Source: Bacteroidales bacterium
Lineage (GTDB): Bacteria; Bacteroidota; Bacteroidia; Bacteroidales; Muribaculaceae
Direction of reading: 5' to 3'
NCBI GenBank assembly: GCA_910575615.1
Contig: CAJTEX010000009.1
Location: forward strand, 1-64,000
Length of the DNA: 64,000 nt
The position numbers and the translations under genes were made by a program. Shown piece by piece: positions 58,001-64,000 of the stretch; the stretch's first letter is position 1, and the number at the start of each line of letters is the position of its first letter. The notes beneath the pieces were generated by a model, which was not told where the DNA came from, ran no database searches, and worked only from the letters and a program-made list of their open reading frames with translations.

Positions 58001-58073
58001 GACTCCGTAGCTCAGTTGGTAGAGCAACTGACTCTTAATCAGTGGGTCGAGAGTTCGAGCCTCTCCGGGGTCA
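58001..58073 (+). tRNA. tRNA-Lys (anticodon CTT)
   Basis: All four arms fold: acceptor GACTCCG (58001-58007) with CGGGGTC (one G-U), D stem GCTC/GAGC, anticodon stem ACTGA/TCAGT around the loop CTCTTAA with anticodon CTT, and T stem GAGAG/CTCTC around TTCGAGC. Discriminator A at 58073; CCA is not encoded. Its 3' end is the likely integration site of the adjacent mobile element. Confidence 0.95.
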
Positions 58074-58096
58074 CTATTAAAGACCACAGAAAGTGG

Positions 58097-58526: not shown

Positions 58527-59861
58527 ATGTCAAAAAAGACTCTTATGTATCAAGCGAATTATTACACGCTGACCTTTATGATACGAAAGGCTCAGCAGAA
58601 AAAATCCGGGGAAACTCCGATTTTTGCTCGCATAACCGTTTCCGGCCAGCGAGCCGAGTTCAACATCAACCGTAGTGTCGACCCTGACAACTGGAACGCC
58701 GCCAAAGGACTTTCCTTTGGAAAGTCCAAGAGAGATATTGAGCTCAACAAGTATTTGGACTCAATCCGTGTCCGCATAAGCGAGATTCATGCCTCGCTTG
58801 TGAAAGATGAAGAGGCAATCAATCCTCTCATCATCAAGCAGCACTTTCTCGGTAATGCCGAGGGGCCGAAGATGCTGTGTGCAGTGTTCAACTATGTCAA
58901 CGAACAACACAAGGAGAGATTCGACCGTGGCGACATCTGCGATGGTACATACCTGCGCTGGAAACGCTGTGCCGAATATCTCGCTGAGTTTATTCAGAAG
59001 CGAGAAGGAAGGGACGATATTCCTATTAAAAAGTTGACAAGCGGCATGATTGACGACTTCGAGCACTTTCTGCGTGTCAACAAGGGTAACGGCAACAATG
59101 CCGCCATCCGATATGTCCGCTATCTAAAGAAGGTGACCCGTGTCGCTCTCGCCAACAAGTGGCTTGATGAAGACCCCTTCATCGACAAGCACTACTCCCG
59201 AACCGCCACAAACCGTGGTCATCTTGGCGAGGAAGAGGTAAAGCGAATCATGGCACTCAATCTGACGGAGTTTCCCCGCCTCGACCAAGTGCGCGACACC
59301 TTCGTCTTCTGTTGCTTCACAGGTCTGGCGTTTGCCGACATTTCCACCCTCTCAAAAGAATTCATTGTCGAAGATGACAATGGAGAGAAGTGGATACGCA
59401 AGCCTCGTCAGAAAACCGGCGAGATAAGCACCATCCCGCTCCTTGATATTCCGCAGCGTCTAATCAAGAAGTATGAAAATCATCCGACGGTCATAGCCAA
59501 GGGGATTGTTCTGCCGGTAATATCCAACCAGCGCATGAATTCCTATCTTGCCGAGATTGCGACTCTCGCCAAAATCCAGAAGCATCTGACAACACACATC
59601 GCGCGCCATACATTTGCGACTATGTCGCTCCGCAATCATGTCCCCATTGAGTCTATTTCAAAGATGCTCGGCCATTCCGACATTCAGACTACTCAAATCT
59701 ACGCGAAAATGCTCGATGAAGCTGTGTCGGAAGATATGCAGAAGATGCGCTCAAAATTCGACGGCATAGACCACAACATCAATCCTCTCCCCGAAAAACC
59801 TACAACTTTTGAGCGTGAGCCGCTCAAAAAGCGTGGACGTCCGAGAAAAAATCCTCTTTGA
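58527..59861 (+). CDS. int: Tyrosine-type site-specific integrase
   Basis: A 444-residue recombinase of the Bacteroides conjugative-element class. An Arm-DNA-binding domain (IRKAQQKKSGETPIFARITV) and an SAM-like core-binding domain (about 115-210) precede the catalytic domain. Catalytic residues seen: Lys in RQKTGEIS, HIARHTFATMS (His-x-x-Arg), LGHSDIQTTQIYAKM (His and nucleophile Tyr). The first catalytic Arg, normally in TGLR, is Ala here (TGLAFADIS), as in many integrases of this class. The C-terminus has an AT-hook-like KKRGRPRKNP. A TAACTTTA overlaps the first ATG, so translation from the Met at 58545 is possible. Confidence 0.93.
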   Translation: MSKKTLMYQANYYTLTFMIRKAQQKKSGETPIFARITVSGQRAEFNINRSVDPDNWNAAKGLSFGKSKRDIELNKYLDSIRVRISEIHASLVKDEEAINPLIIKQHFLGNAEGPKMLCAVFNYVNEQHKERFDRGDICDGTYLRWKRCAEYLAEFIQKREGRDDIPIKKLTSGMIDDFEHFLRVNKGNGNNAAIRYVRYLKKVTRVALANKWLDEDPFIDKHYSRTATNRGHLGEEEVKRIMALNLTEFPRLDQVRDTFVFCCFTGLAFADISTLSKEFIVEDDNGEKWIRKPRQKTGEISTIPLLDIPQRLIKKYENHPTVIAKGIVLPVISNQRMNSYLAEIATLAKIQKHLTTHIARHTFATMSLRNHVPIESISKMLGHSDIQTTQIYAKMLDEAVSEDMQKMRSKFDGIDHNINPLPEKPTTFEREPLKKRGRPRKNPL

Positions 59862-59948: not shown

Positions 59949-60242
59949 TCAGTATTTGGCGTGGAAGTTGGCGTTGAGCCATTCTTCTATCTCCGCTTCA
60001 TCGTAGATGGTCTTGCCACCTATTTTATAATAGGGAATGATATTGGCATTGCGGAAGTTCTGGAGAGTACGGCGATGCAACGACAGCCGTTTTGACAATT
60101 CCTTGTCTTCGATGAAGAATCTCCCTGCCAACGGCGGTCGGATATTCGGGGCTATCGCCTCAAACATTTCAGCCAATTCCCTTGCCTGTGCATAGAATGT
60201 CATCACACCGGGATGGCGTTTGGTGATAATCTCATCTGTCAT
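59949..60242 (-). CDS. Excisionase-like helix-turn-helix protein
   Basis: A 97-residue DNA-binding protein. A helical N-terminal part (AQARELAEMFEAIAP) leads to a MerR-like winged helix-turn-helix: LSKRLSLHRRTLQNFRN as the helices, then YKIGGKTIYDEAEIEEWL as the wing and last helix. Proteins of this type serve as Xis2d/Xis2c-like recombination directionality factors in Bacteroides elements. Its ATG overlaps the stop of the upstream gene (ATGA). Confidence 0.82.
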   Translation of the reverse strand: MTDEIITKRHPGVMTFYAQARELAEMFEAIAPNIRPPLAGRFFIEDKELSKRLSLHRRTLQNFRNANIIPYYKIGGKTIYDEAEIEEWLNANFHAKY

Positions 60243-60544
60243 AGGCTTCCTCCGGCCTCCATCCGGTTGTCGTCAAGATAACGTCCTATCTCAGCTTCGC
60301 TGAACAGACAGTTCCCTCCCGGCTCTTGGAAGTAGCCTATCTTTCCGCTTGATTTCAGCGTCTGGAGCTGGCGGACGGTGATACACATGGCATTTGCCGC
60401 CGCGTATGGTGTGAGCCATTTTCCGGAACCGGCGGGTGGATGTAGCAGTTTCCACATACGGCTCACCATTGTGTGAAGAAACTGCATGGATTTCACCATG
60501 TCCTCAAACACCTCCTTGTCTATTTCGATTGTCTGCATAGGCAA
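60239..60544 (-). CDS. Second excisionase-like helix-turn-helix protein
   Basis: A 101-residue protein with the same build as its downstream neighbour: a helical N-terminus (EVFEDMVKSMQFLHTMVSRM) and a MerR-like domain (YAAANAMCITVRQLQTLKSS, then FSEAEIGRYLDDNR). The two are probably ancient duplicates that act together at the attachment site. It follows the topoisomerase-like gene by 7 nt. Confidence 0.8.
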   Translation of the reverse strand: MPMQTIEIDKEVFEDMVKSMQFLHTMVSRMWKLLHPPAGSGKWLTPYAAANAMCITVRQLQTLKSSGKIGYFQEPGGNCLFSEAEIGRYLDDNRMEAGGSL

Positions 60545-60551
60545 TTCTATT

Positions 60552-62519
60552 TTATGAATATATCTTGGCGGCTTTGGCGGAGAATGTCACGCCGAAACGG
60601 TTGTCGATTACCAGCGATTCGCAGAATTTGCGACCTCTGGTATTTGTAAAGCCGTAGATGGGCGATGTGTATTTGTATCGGACGAGTTGCTCGATGTCCT
60701 TGTCGGTCAGGTCGTAGCCGTGGAAGTGGAGCGGGATTGAGAATCCACAGCACTCACAGGCAACTGTAGCCGGGAACACGGTCAGTCCGTGGTTGCCGCA
60801 TTTCGGACAGGTGTAGCCCGATACCTTGCTGACAAAGGATTTCTTGTCGGTGATGAGCGAGAGAATAAGGGGATGAATCCAGTTCTCATACTCCCGCATT
60901 ACCGGCTTTGTTGGCTTGCGGTTCTCCGCGAGCGCGTCAACCTCGTCAATCTGGCTGATGTACTTGCCGATGTCGGAGAGTTCGAGATGGCCGACGTGTG
61001 AAAGAAGCACACGCGCCTTCTCCGTCGGCTCGATGTCTCCAAGCAGATATTTCACTAATCCGTTGTCGATGAGACGCTGGAGGCAGGCTCCGCAGTCGCG
61101 GTAACTGCCCACGGGAAGAAGTGAGGGGGTATCACCGTCAGTGTTGACCAGTTCATTGAGGTCGTGCAGGAAGGCTACGGCGGTCAGGGTTTCGGGCGTG
61201 CGATTCGAGAAAGAGAATATATTCACGCCTGAGACTGTAAATGCGATGCTCCCCGGAACACATTCCGCATTGTCGGGCAGTTCGGCTGTGCCGAAGATGT
61301 CGATACCCTCTATATTAGCCATGATACCGACCTCGATACATTTGGCAGAGTCAAATGCCATTTCGGTACGGGTGCTGATGAGTTCATACACACGCTGCTC
61401 GTCGTCGCTGAGAAAGAGAGGTGTACGCTCGGTAGTGATAATTCCGTGGCAGTAGGGTATCTGCTCTTCCGGACGGAACGGGAACGCCTTTGCCTCAGGG
61501 AAGCGACGCTCAACGTGACGCTTCAGATGATGAGGTAGTGATGACACCGAGGTGCGGGGCGACGAGATAAGCCCTTTCTCAAACAGAAGGTCTGCGGCCG
61601 CCATTGTACGAGCTGGCAGGAATCCCAGCTCCTCGATGGACACCTCCTGAAGGGTCGCCATGTTGAGCAACTCGTGGCACCACTCCACTTTCGGGTTGAC
61701 CTCCACAACCTCAGCTGTGACAGTCTTGCCGTTCATTTTCATGAAATTCTCATAAACTTTCTGCGCGTCCGATTCCTTGCACCATATTTCCGTGGGTGCC
61801 AACTGTGCATCCTTTCCATCCCACTTGCCGGATATACCAACACCGTAGCGGGTCTTCTTGGGGAATTTGACTTTCATGTTGTCGTAGCTGTTGCAAAGGA
61901 GCCAGAGCGCGGCGATGTCCATGCGCTCCATCGGGAACGACTGCTTGCCATACATCTGGGCGAATGCCTGTTCCACATTGGCACGGAACAGAAAGTTCAT
62001 TCCGTGGTGAACGAAACCGGAGCGGGCTATACGTGTGATGTTGCGGCCTGACTCGCGGTTACGGTAGGCGTAGGTTATCGACCGGTTGCTCAGTGTGGTC
62101 AGCCACATGCGGCTGGTACGGCATCCGGCCTTTGCCGCCTGACATAGAATAGCGAATAGAGCCTGAGCCTCACTTCCGTTGTTTGAGGCGAAGATAACCT
62201 CTGCGGCCTGCTCGACAAGAGCATGAAGTCTGATGACTGTGCTTTTATCCTCGTCGCTGACTTTGAATTTGCCGTTCTCGTTGTAAGCACGGATACCATA
62301 CAGGTATCTCGTCGGGATGAAAGGGAGCGTCTTGATGAAGTCGCTGCCACCGGCGTAATACTGATACGGAGCCGGCTCGACGAGACTGGGCTCGACGGAG
62401 GTGATGACGATGCTGCCGGTGTCGTTGGTGTAGTCGCCGTTTTCGGTGCGGTCGGTGCAGTTGAGGGCGCGGGATACGGCGAAGGCGATTTGGGTGGAGT
62501 GTGCGATTACGAGATTCAT
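60552..62519 (-). CDS. Type IA topoisomerase-like protein lacking catalytic residues
   Basis: A 655-residue protein with the plan of topoisomerase III: N-terminal TOPRIM-like part, the LLNMATLQEVSIEELGF region with LPARTMAAADLLFEKGL, and a C-terminal zinc ribbon (CPKCGNHG ... CECCGF) followed by the family's closing helices. Catalytic positions are changed: IAEKPSV of TopB is IAHSTQI (Glu7 to His); the TOPRIM acidic box is SNNGSEAQ (112-119) where active enzymes have D-A/P-D/G-R-E-G; and the nucleophile in YPRT is Ser320 (SSPRT). It is thus probably unable to cleave DNA but may keep a structural role in excision, like the Exc protein of CTnDOT, which I recall does not need its tyrosine. No frameshift or stop is present. 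Confidence 0.82.
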   Translation of the reverse strand: MNLVIAHSTQIAFAVSRALNCTDRTENGDYTNDTGSIVITSVEPSLVEPAPYQYYAGGSDFIKTLPFIPTRYLYGIRAYNENGKFKVSDEDKSTVIRLHALVEQAAEVIFASNNGSEAQALFAILCQAAKAGCRTSRMWLTTLSNRSITYAYRNRESGRNITRIARSGFVHHGMNFLFRANVEQAFAQMYGKQSFPMERMDIAALWLLCNSYDNMKVKFPKKTRYGVGISGKWDGKDAQLAPTEIWCKESDAQKVYENFMKMNGKTVTAEVVEVNPKVEWCHELLNMATLQEVSIEELGFLPARTMAAADLLFEKGLISSPRTSVSSLPHHLKRHVERRFPEAKAFPFRPEEQIPYCHGIITTERTPLFLSDDEQRVYELISTRTEMAFDSAKCIEVGIMANIEGIDIFGTAELPDNAECVPGSIAFTVSGVNIFSFSNRTPETLTAVAFLHDLNELVNTDGDTPSLLPVGSYRDCGACLQRLIDNGLVKYLLGDIEPTEKARVLLSHVGHLELSDIGKYISQIDEVDALAENRKPTKPVMREYENWIHPLILSLITDKKSFVSKVSGYTCPKCGNHGLTVFPATVACECCGFSIPLHFHGYDLTDKDIEQLVRYKYTSPIYGFTNTRGRKFCESLVIDNRFGVTFSAKAAKIYS

Positions 62520-62656: not shown

Positions 62657-64000
62657 TTATACTTTCGGTCCCTTCGGCTTGCGCTGTTGCGCCTGCTGCT
62701 GTTCGTTCTTGGGAGCCGTCTGACCCTTATGTAGCGGGTCGGTGATGTTTTTCGTAGCCTCGTTGGTCTTTCCCTGATTGTTCACGGCATACTGGGTCTT
62801 GCTCTCCTCGGCCACGCCGACAACCTTCTTGTTTTCGGCATAGTGATATTCAGTGACCGGACGCTGTTTCTCCTTGTTGAACTGTAGAAATACCGTGCAG
62901 GGCTGGCCTTGCTTGTCAGTGACATTTACCATCTCGATCTTTTTACCAGCCATATAGTCGGCAATCTGCTGTTCGTTGAACCGGGTATCCTTCCACTTGG
63001 TGATACGCTTGGGATTACCGTCGGCGTCAACCCATGAGTTGCGCTGCTGTTGCTGCTGCTTCTCACCGGACTGCTCCTGTTTGAGCGACTGGGTGCGGAC
63101 GAACTCGACATCGCGCTTGTCGGCATTATACTGGAGGTCGCTGGTGAATTTGCGCCCGTTGTTCAGCTCGATTTCCTTGCCGTGTACCACACCGCCGTCT
63201 TTCAGGATACCTATCTCCTTCATCGAAAGCTCAGTCTTGCCGATGTGGTTCTTGATAAAGATTTTATCCACGGGCATCGCCTCGATTTCGTTGGTGAGGC
63301 GGTCAACGCTGACCAGACATTTCTTCATCTCCCCGGTCTTGGGGTCGGCAAGTTCAACGACCTTACCGAGATTGCCGGTTTTGAGAAGCTGCTCCTTGTC
63401 CTCCTTCGAGAACTCGTAGCCACGGAAGGGAACGTCAAGTCTTGGCTCGTTCTTGATGAAGTGAGGCGCGAGAGTGAAACTTCCGTCTGGCTGCTCCTTG
63501 AAGGATAGGCGGGCATCGAGAGTGAATTTCTCATCGCCGAACTGCGGCGTGACGGTAAAGAGCTGGGGCGACTTGTGGTTGTAGAGCATCGACTGGAGCG
63601 CGCCTGACTGTTCGAGTGTTTCGCGCTTTACGCCCCACTGCTGCTCGATGGTCGTCCAGTCTATCCTGTCGGGGTCAACGGGTGTCGCCTTTGTTGCGGT
63701 GGTTGTCGCTTCCGTCCGGCTCTGCGTGTTGTCCTGTTCGGGCTGAGGCTTTACTTCCGGTTTCTGCTGTACTTCCGCCGGGGTCTGCTCCTGCGCCGGG
63801 GCCTGTTCCTGAGTCTGTGCCACAGACTTCATATCGACCTCATAAGGCTTGAGCATCTCGCCGTTTGACTCAGTGTCTTGGATTAGGTCTGCCATTGCCG
63901 GAGCGATTGCATCATAGCGATCGGCGGGGAGTTTGAAGAATCCGAACAGCGTAGGGTTCTTCGCCTGACGGATGAAATTGGAGATGAACGCCTCGATGGG
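62657..64000 (-). CDS. DUF4099/DUF3945 domain protein, 5' end outside the window
   Basis: Open from the window edge to a stop at 62657 (447 codons seen). The first visible residues (FISNFIRQAKNPTLFGFFKL) are part of the protein, since no stop or Met occurs before the Met at 63895; the true start lies outside. A Gln/Pro/Thr-rich linker (about residues 60-100 of the visible part) separates this from a DUF4099-like region (IDWTTIEQQWGVKRETLEQS ...) and a DUF3945-like region (TDKQGQPCTVFLQFNKEKQ). Such proteins accompany topoisomerase genes in Bacteroides mobile elements; their function is not known. Confidence 0.8.
   Translation of the reverse strand, partial: PIEAFISNFIRQAKNPTLFGFFKLPADRYDAIAPAMADLIQDTESNGEMLKPYEVDMKSVAQTQEQAPAQEQTPAEVQQKPEVKPQPEQDNTQSRTEATTTATKATPVDPDRIDWTTIEQQWGVKRETLEQSGALQSMLYNHKSPQLFTVTPQFGDEKFTLDARLSFKEQPDGSFTLAPHFIKNEPRLDVPFRGYEFSKEDKEQLLKTGNLGKVVELADPKTGEMKKCLVSVDRLTNEIEAMPVDKIFIKNHIGKTELSMKEIGILKDGGVVHGKEIELNNGRKFTSDLQYNADKRDVEFVRTQSLKQEQSGEKQQQQQRNSWVDADGNPKRITKWKDTRFNEQQIADYMAGKKIEMVNVTDKQGQPCTVFLQFNKEKQRPVTEYHYAENKKVVGVAEESKTQYAVNNQGKTNEATKNITDPLHKGQTAPKNEQQQAQQRKPKGPKV

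Follow-up and report, generated by a model that had tools for sequence, protein, structure and literature searches.

The window, by which we mean the whole stretch of 64,000 nucleotides analyzed here, enters a conjugative element of the CTnDOT type, about 59.8 kb long and bounded by a 15-bp repeat of a tRNA-Lys 3' end, found at contig positions 58060 and 117857. The element encodes a tyrosine integrase, two HTH proteins, a DUF4099/DUF3945 protein, a DUF1896 protein, a SNF2-type helicase, a TraG/TraD coupling protein, and a MobA-type relaxase, in addition to the CTnDOT-type Tra proteins CtnDOT_TraJ, Transposon_TraM, TraO, P-loop_TraG, and VirB8 and a sigma-54 response regulator that we take to be RteB-like. 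Integrase, relaxase, coupling protein, CTnDOT-type Tra proteins, and att repeats, by which we recognize a CTnDOT-type ICE, are thus all present. The left 12,519 bp of the element are 99.992% identical to a contig in a second genome of the same genus (L001), and the match breaks off precisely where the tRNA gene begins. Beyond this point, no match to that contig was found over 300 bases at an E value of 1e-20, and the copy in the second genome therefore lies in a different chromosomal neighborhood, which points to recent movement of the element.

Next to the integrase gene lies a block of genes read in one direction, including the one that is the subject of this report, for a protein of 655 aa that we call a pseudotopoisomerase (Table 1). 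The gene is co-directional with both HTH genes; the frame of HTH-B starts 7 bases past its stop codon, and the HTH-A and HTH-B frames overlap by 4 bases. The DUF4099/DUF3945 gene occupies what is presumably the orf3 slot of CTnDOT. The first-pass annotation, made from the sequence before our analysis, had placed the gene beside two Xis-like proteins and an integrase. Both HTH neighbors indeed match excisionase models and the integrase is a tyrosine recombinase, although one of the two HTH matches is weak.

Table 1. Features of the pseudotopoisomerase gene, its neighbors, and its element (window positions unless a locus or contig is named)
Feature	Position	Strand	Evidence or remark
tRNA-Lys(ctt), integration target	58001..58074	+	second-genome identity stops at its first base
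Left att repeat, CCTCTCCGGGGTCAC	58060..58074	.	repeated at contig base 117857
Tyrosine integrase of the element	58527..59861	+	PF00589, PF13102, PF17293
HTH/Xis-like protein A	59949..60242	-	HTH_17; TIGR01764 excise below cut-off; phrog_66 excisionase, E 5e-9
HTH/Xis-like protein B	60239..60544	-	TTG start; phrog_66 excisionase, E 8e-4; no Pfam family
Pseudotopoisomerase (Exc-slot protein), 655 aa	60552..62519	-	full-length homologue of Exc-type topoisomerases and topoisomerase III
C-terminal zinc ribbon, C571..C591	60747..60809	-	PF13342, best stretch 591-646; Cys positions
Ser320 codon, place of the nucleophilic Tyr	61560..61562	-	alignments; Ser in 26/26 covering loci
Degenerate TOPRIM acidic motif, N113-Q119 (NNGSEAQ)	62163..62183	-	profile alignments and residue table
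His7 codon, place of the catalytic Glu7	62499..62501	-	alignments; re-read from DNA
DUF4099/DUF3945 protein	62657..64000	-	Pfam; runs on to contig base 64159
Group II intron region	L041:4860 to ~L041:7343 (contig C9 68860-71343)		ends approximate

A type IA topoisomerase relative that has lost key catalytic residues

The window protein is a full-length relative of type IA topoisomerases in which key catalytic residues have been lost. Its frame is open over all 655 codons, as first annotated, and the product scores above the curated Pfam cut-offs with Topoisom_bac (E 3.4e-13) and with Toprim_Crpt, a C-terminal repeat (E 1.9e-8). Its scores with the NCBIfam topoisomerase models listed fall far below their cut-offs, as expected for a divergent relative. 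A profile built from 10 proteins of its clade matches topoisomerase III chains, among them 11yy, 1d6m, 1i7d, and 2o19, over residues ~1-592 (E ~3e-17), bearing out the earlier description of a full-length topoisomerase III relative. The predicted structure, in which the toroidal fold was examined, has low model confidence.

In the profile alignment, Glu7 of 11yy_A, whose residue numbers we take to be those of E. coli topoisomerase III, faces H7 of the window protein, D103-P-D105-R-E107-G-Q109 faces N113-N-G115-S-E117-A-Q119, and Y328-P-R330 faces S320-P-R322. A single-sequence search of the PDB sets the ISSPRTS of the window protein against ISYPRTE of topoisomerase III-alpha. The nucleophilic Tyr is thus replaced by Ser320, the catalytic Glu by His7, and the first TOPRIM Asp by Asn113, and Lys8 is also gone (S8), whereas the TOPRIM Glu (E117), the Arg two residues past the Tyr (R322), the groove Arg R199, and H358 are kept; all of these residues, together with G115 and Q119, were re-read from the window DNA. 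In terms of E. coli TopB, Tyr328 has become Ser, Glu7 His, Asp103 Asn, and Asp105 Gly, while Glu107 and Arg330 are retained as Glu117 and Arg322. The replacements of Glu7 and of the Tyr of YPRT noted in the first-pass annotation were both confirmed, but its heading that every catalytic element had been replaced overstates slightly because E117, R322, R199, and H358 remain. Likewise, its statement that the TOPRIM acids had given way to SNNGSEAQ holds for the two Asp places but not for E117, and Q119 is no loss because the aligned topoisomerase III has Gln there too. Gly at the place of the second TOPRIM Asp is already found in active Exc-type proteins.

The Tyr residues nearest Ser320 lie 36 residues after and 64 residues before it, and a shifted Tyr in the window protein was rejected on these distances. 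The zinc ribbon, described earlier as kept, is retained in the window subclade (C571, C574, C588, and C590/591), but members of the clade with 511 to 539 aa stop before it. Judging from these residues, the window protein is very probably unable to cut DNA by type IA chemistry.

The serine clade, its degenerate relatives, and Exc

Searching 297 genomes of the window's family with the window protein and scoring the best four candidates per genome, as also done for the Phe form described below, we found at least 28 loci of a clade carrying Ser at the place of the Tyr (Ser clade) in at least 22 genomes. All 26 loci spanning the site, among them that of the window, have Ser there, at identities down to 25%; the two others (G143:C123 and G295:C44) are fragments without the site. 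Copies with identical ends were removed before residue tables were made. Two further searches with other Ser-clade queries, each of 393 genomes of the order at an E value of 1e-20 with the best three candidates per genome, gave matches only in G000 and G013, both of the window's family, and none outside it; an order-wide distribution of the clade was rejected on this basis.

Nine Ser representatives are 25-90% identical to the window protein, and in an alignment of ten Ser proteins I318-S319-S320, E107-V108, F110-A111-S112, G115, A118, and Q119 are invariant. By the Nei-Gojobori method, dN/dS is 0.13 and 0.15 between the window gene and its two 90% orthologues. The eight close pairs together, including one from the Phe clade, give 0.07-0.18, and four pairs with dS above 1 give 0.17-0.30. 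The protein is therefore under purifying selection, in line with the selection assumed in the first-pass annotation, and the Ser320 form, which it had proposed to check as a possible conserved clade, is one.

Erosion of the former active site differs among subclades and is strongest in that of the window (His7 and Asn113). A 48% relative of the window protein has Thr7 and the first TOPRIM Asp, most Ser subclades retain Glu7 and the first TOPRIM Asp, and one retains Lys8. The Arg at Tyr +2 is kept in the window and 48% lineages and is Leu, Phe, or Tyr in other Ser subclades; further G-strand-binding positions are replaced in Ser forms. The first-pass annotation had named an intact Tyr a few residues away in homologues as evidence that would count against it. 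Absent from the window protein, such a Tyr stands two residues past the Ser in one subclade, the 511-aa Ser proteins (frames of 515-656 aa; L031, L032, L033, L055, L056, and L215; 6 of the 26 loci), and the case for that subclade is therefore weaker. Glu7, Lys8, and the first TOPRIM Asp are all still present in the two 511-aa proteins that were tabulated, so proteins of this kind could be less dead than the window form.

Among 17 Ser-clade loci scanned, of which L004 and L057 are the same place, the integrase and HTH-A are found at all 17 (at L052, only an integrase fragment lies next to the block), DUF4099 at 16, and HTH-B at 14; the three loci that gave no HTH-B match are of the 511-aa type, and L050 gave none for DUF4099. 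A tRNA gene is present at 13 of these loci (Met at four, Lys(ttt) at four, Lys(ctt) at four, and Arg plus Gln at one) and at the remaining four there is none.

For comparison, we used the circular Bacteroides fragilis record p214_V8GG_COL1 (55,727 bp), which we take to be CTn214. Its gene order is integrase, small gene, HTH, HTH (reverse), HTH, HTH, DUF3945, topoisomerase IA, DUF1896, N-6 methylase, and tetQ, a slot that we assume corresponds to xis2c-xis2d-orf3-exc in CTnDOT naming, and its topoisomerase has an intact YPRTG. This record contains homologues of the window element's integrase, HTH genes, DUF4099, topoisomerase, DUF1896, MutS_I/methylase, and helicase. The window protein resembles the Exc-type protein in full-length homology and in its neighborhood of DUF3945/DUF4099, HTH, and integrase genes but has partly lost the Glu7, TOPRIM acids, and YPRTG that Exc-type proteins keep. 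In hhalign comparison, the Ser alignment matches active Exc-type proteins over 637 columns (E 7.6e-47, 100% probability), and trees place the Ser clade, with long branches, beside Exc and apart from chromosomal TopB. Homology, slot, and tree together indicate an origin of the window protein from Exc, the excision protein of CTnDOT that resembles topoisomerase III and is represented here by Exc-type proteins of the B. fragilis record and others. The DUF4099-topoisomerase pair of Ser elements is inverted compared to the B. fragilis element and reads into the two HTH genes, with which it is co-directional, so the operon partners differ between the two.

Two other degenerate forms occur in the same family. 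The Phe form, which is full length with ISFP and Gln for Glu7, was found at four or more loci in 4 of the 297 genomes (L036, L060, L083, and L084), and the half-length mini form, whose tabulated members have frames of 339-467 aa, at 23 or more loci in 20 of the 297, with the best six candidates per genome scored. Where inspected, the DUF4099-X-DUF1896 slot is held by the Phe form (L059 and L060) or the mini form (L177-L182). The mini proteins of L177-L182 and L184-L203 occupy, at half length, the exc slot of other elements. Of the 23 mini places, 20 loci were fetched and gave 18 distinct proteins, one with masked residues; seven of the 23 matches contain one stop codon, which in G090 and G081 is at the end of the match. 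Among the 18 tabulated proteins, the Tyr is kept in 16, the following Arg in none, Glu7 in two, and the first TOPRIM Asp in one; the GRVQ motif and a genuine C-terminal half are absent from all 18. When 295 genomes of the order were searched with the Phe query, active-type proteins ranked first, with YPRT at all loci of the ten best genomes (L111-L120). Among the rows read, the Ser and Phe forms were found within the window's family only; the mini-form search covered that family.

At 16 functional positions, 12 of 13 Exc rows agree throughout, the exception being L118 with Lys for one Glu, and each of the five chromosomal TopB rows departs at a single position, with Arg for Thr504, while all 32 degenerate rows (10 Ser, 4 Phe, and 18 mini) are broken at several. 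In a tree built without catalytic columns, all three degenerate forms fall into one clade (100/100) that joins Exc, a topology that needs one change from active to dead. A single loss of catalysis for the three forms is therefore likely on tree evidence but, given the long branches flagged, not certain. The joining of the Ser and Phe clades may reflect long-branch attraction; AU tests reject clades of Exc with Phe (p 0.017) and of Exc with Ser (p 0.0095), but under the same model as the trees. Across the 297 genomes of this one family, at least 55 degenerate loci (28 Ser, 4 Phe, and 23 mini) compare with at least 12 intact active-type Exc loci, all 12 of which were read; these are counts of scored matches rather than a census.

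An intact Exc-type protein accompanies the Ser form in 6 of the 22 genomes (G043, G081, G051, G222, G074, and G219), and none was found among the topoisomerase frames read in the other 16. Other type IA genes are present in all 22. In the window genome, all six PF01131 candidates were scored, covering chromosomal TopB, TopA, a 317-aa active-type Exc C-terminal fragment, and the window gene. The fragment (L183:5185-6135, on G000 contig C28) is apparently a remnant of another element. In G219, an active-type Exc gene (L073; G219:C1:2884202-2888821) is split into two frames about 2.6 kb apart.

Possible roles of the pseudotopoisomerase

Exc reportedly stimulates CTnDOT excision in vitro, and it has posed a puzzle, since a topoisomerase is needed for excision while its catalysis is reportedly dispensable. 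Sutanto et al. (2002) are reported to have found that CTnDOT Exc, when mutated at the Tyr and devoid of topoisomerase activity, can still sustain excision; a further paper on CTnDOT excision is that of Sutanto et al. (2004). Pseudoenzymes kept as scaffolds form a known class, which the window protein resembles in that catalytic residues are lost, selection persists, and the fold is probably kept. Literature searches within an open-access collection that does not include the main CTnDOT papers listed no description of a conserved pseudotopoisomerase clade or of a dead Exc.

We consider it fairly probable that the window protein is a natural pseudotopoisomerase, derived from Exc, that has a structural part in an excision complex, and perhaps in a transfer-switch complex as well, without strand passage. 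Such a protein would bind or hold DNA, the Int-Xis proteins, or both in a clamp-like, topoisomerase-shaped scaffold, and may thereby assist the integrase in joining attL to attR. The first-pass annotation had likewise proposed a structural excision or transfer factor; gene order and Exc homology fit this proposal, and the part played in excision or transfer itself is what we infer. Several observations count against a structural role: the intact Exc of six genomes could act in trans, and all 22 genomes have other type IA genes; helper functions could have mobilized the L001 copy; Glu7 and the first TOPRIM Asp persist in most Ser subclades, and Lys8 in one; the operon partners are not those of the B. 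fragilis element; HTH-B or DUF4099 is missing from the matches at some loci; and the structure model has low confidence.

The close, co-directional arrangement with the HTH genes, 7 bases apart, would also suit a former topoisomerase whose main function is to bind DNA and regulate the mob/tra operons or the HTH genes, outside the recombination complex. CTnDOT excisionases are described as also being transcription factors for conjugation genes (PMC9956884). However, that statement concerns excisionases and not the pseudotopoisomerase, and a mainly regulatory role appears unlikely to us. Sharing of 6 of the 22 genomes by the Ser form and an intact Exc could instead reflect interference, in which a dead Exc would obstruct active Exc or host TopB or compete with them, for instance to counter rival elements. 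With no intact Exc found in the other 16 genomes, and with the gene sitting in the element's own excision block, we hold this to be improbable. The invariance of Ser319-Ser320 in 10 proteins, the most distant of them 25% identical, the presence of Ser320 at every covering locus, and the Glu7 and first TOPRIM Asp of most subclades might be taken as signs of altered catalysis, with Ser320 as a nucleophile that nicks or transfers strands in the type IA fold. This reading is very improbable: Glu7, Lys8, and the TOPRIM Asp are gone from the window protein, lineages other than those of the window and its 48% relative have Leu, Phe, or Tyr in place of the Tyr +2 Arg, other G-strand-binding positions are replaced, and we know of no Ser-based type IA enzyme. 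Decay of a pseudogene, with which the lost catalytic residues and the C-terminal domains missing from some relatives would agree, is extremely improbable and was rejected on dN/dS. Open frames, residues invariant at deep divergence, and, where the first-pass annotation had allowed for a decaying singleton, 28 loci in 22 of 297 genomes also speak against decay.

Returning to a structural part in excision, we tentatively extend it to all three degenerate forms, whose clade may have replaced the enzyme in the excision block as non-cutting clamps, loss of catalysis being followed by diversification into Ser and Phe forms of full length and forms of half length. Evolution then seems to have repeated the experiment of an Exc whose catalysis is reportedly dispensable. 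Degenerate forms outnumber intact Exc among scored loci. If this is true, the structural role of the topoisomerase fold is directly testable, and the half-length forms would point to the part that matters.

Other features of the element

Elsewhere in the element, a 1163-aa protein (L041:1368-4859) has a MutS_I match (E 2.6e-37) and is taken as methylase-like by its place. Between its gene and the helicase gene lies a group II intron (RF00029, L041:7245-7343) with a reverse-transcriptase/maturase ORF. The MutS_I/methylase-like and helicase genes are nearly continuous in several relatives (L002, L047, and L049), and a similar gap is seen in L057. Further along the element, at contig C9 74425-86706 (L041 and L042), one ORF of 993 aa and another of 3087 aa stand out by their size.
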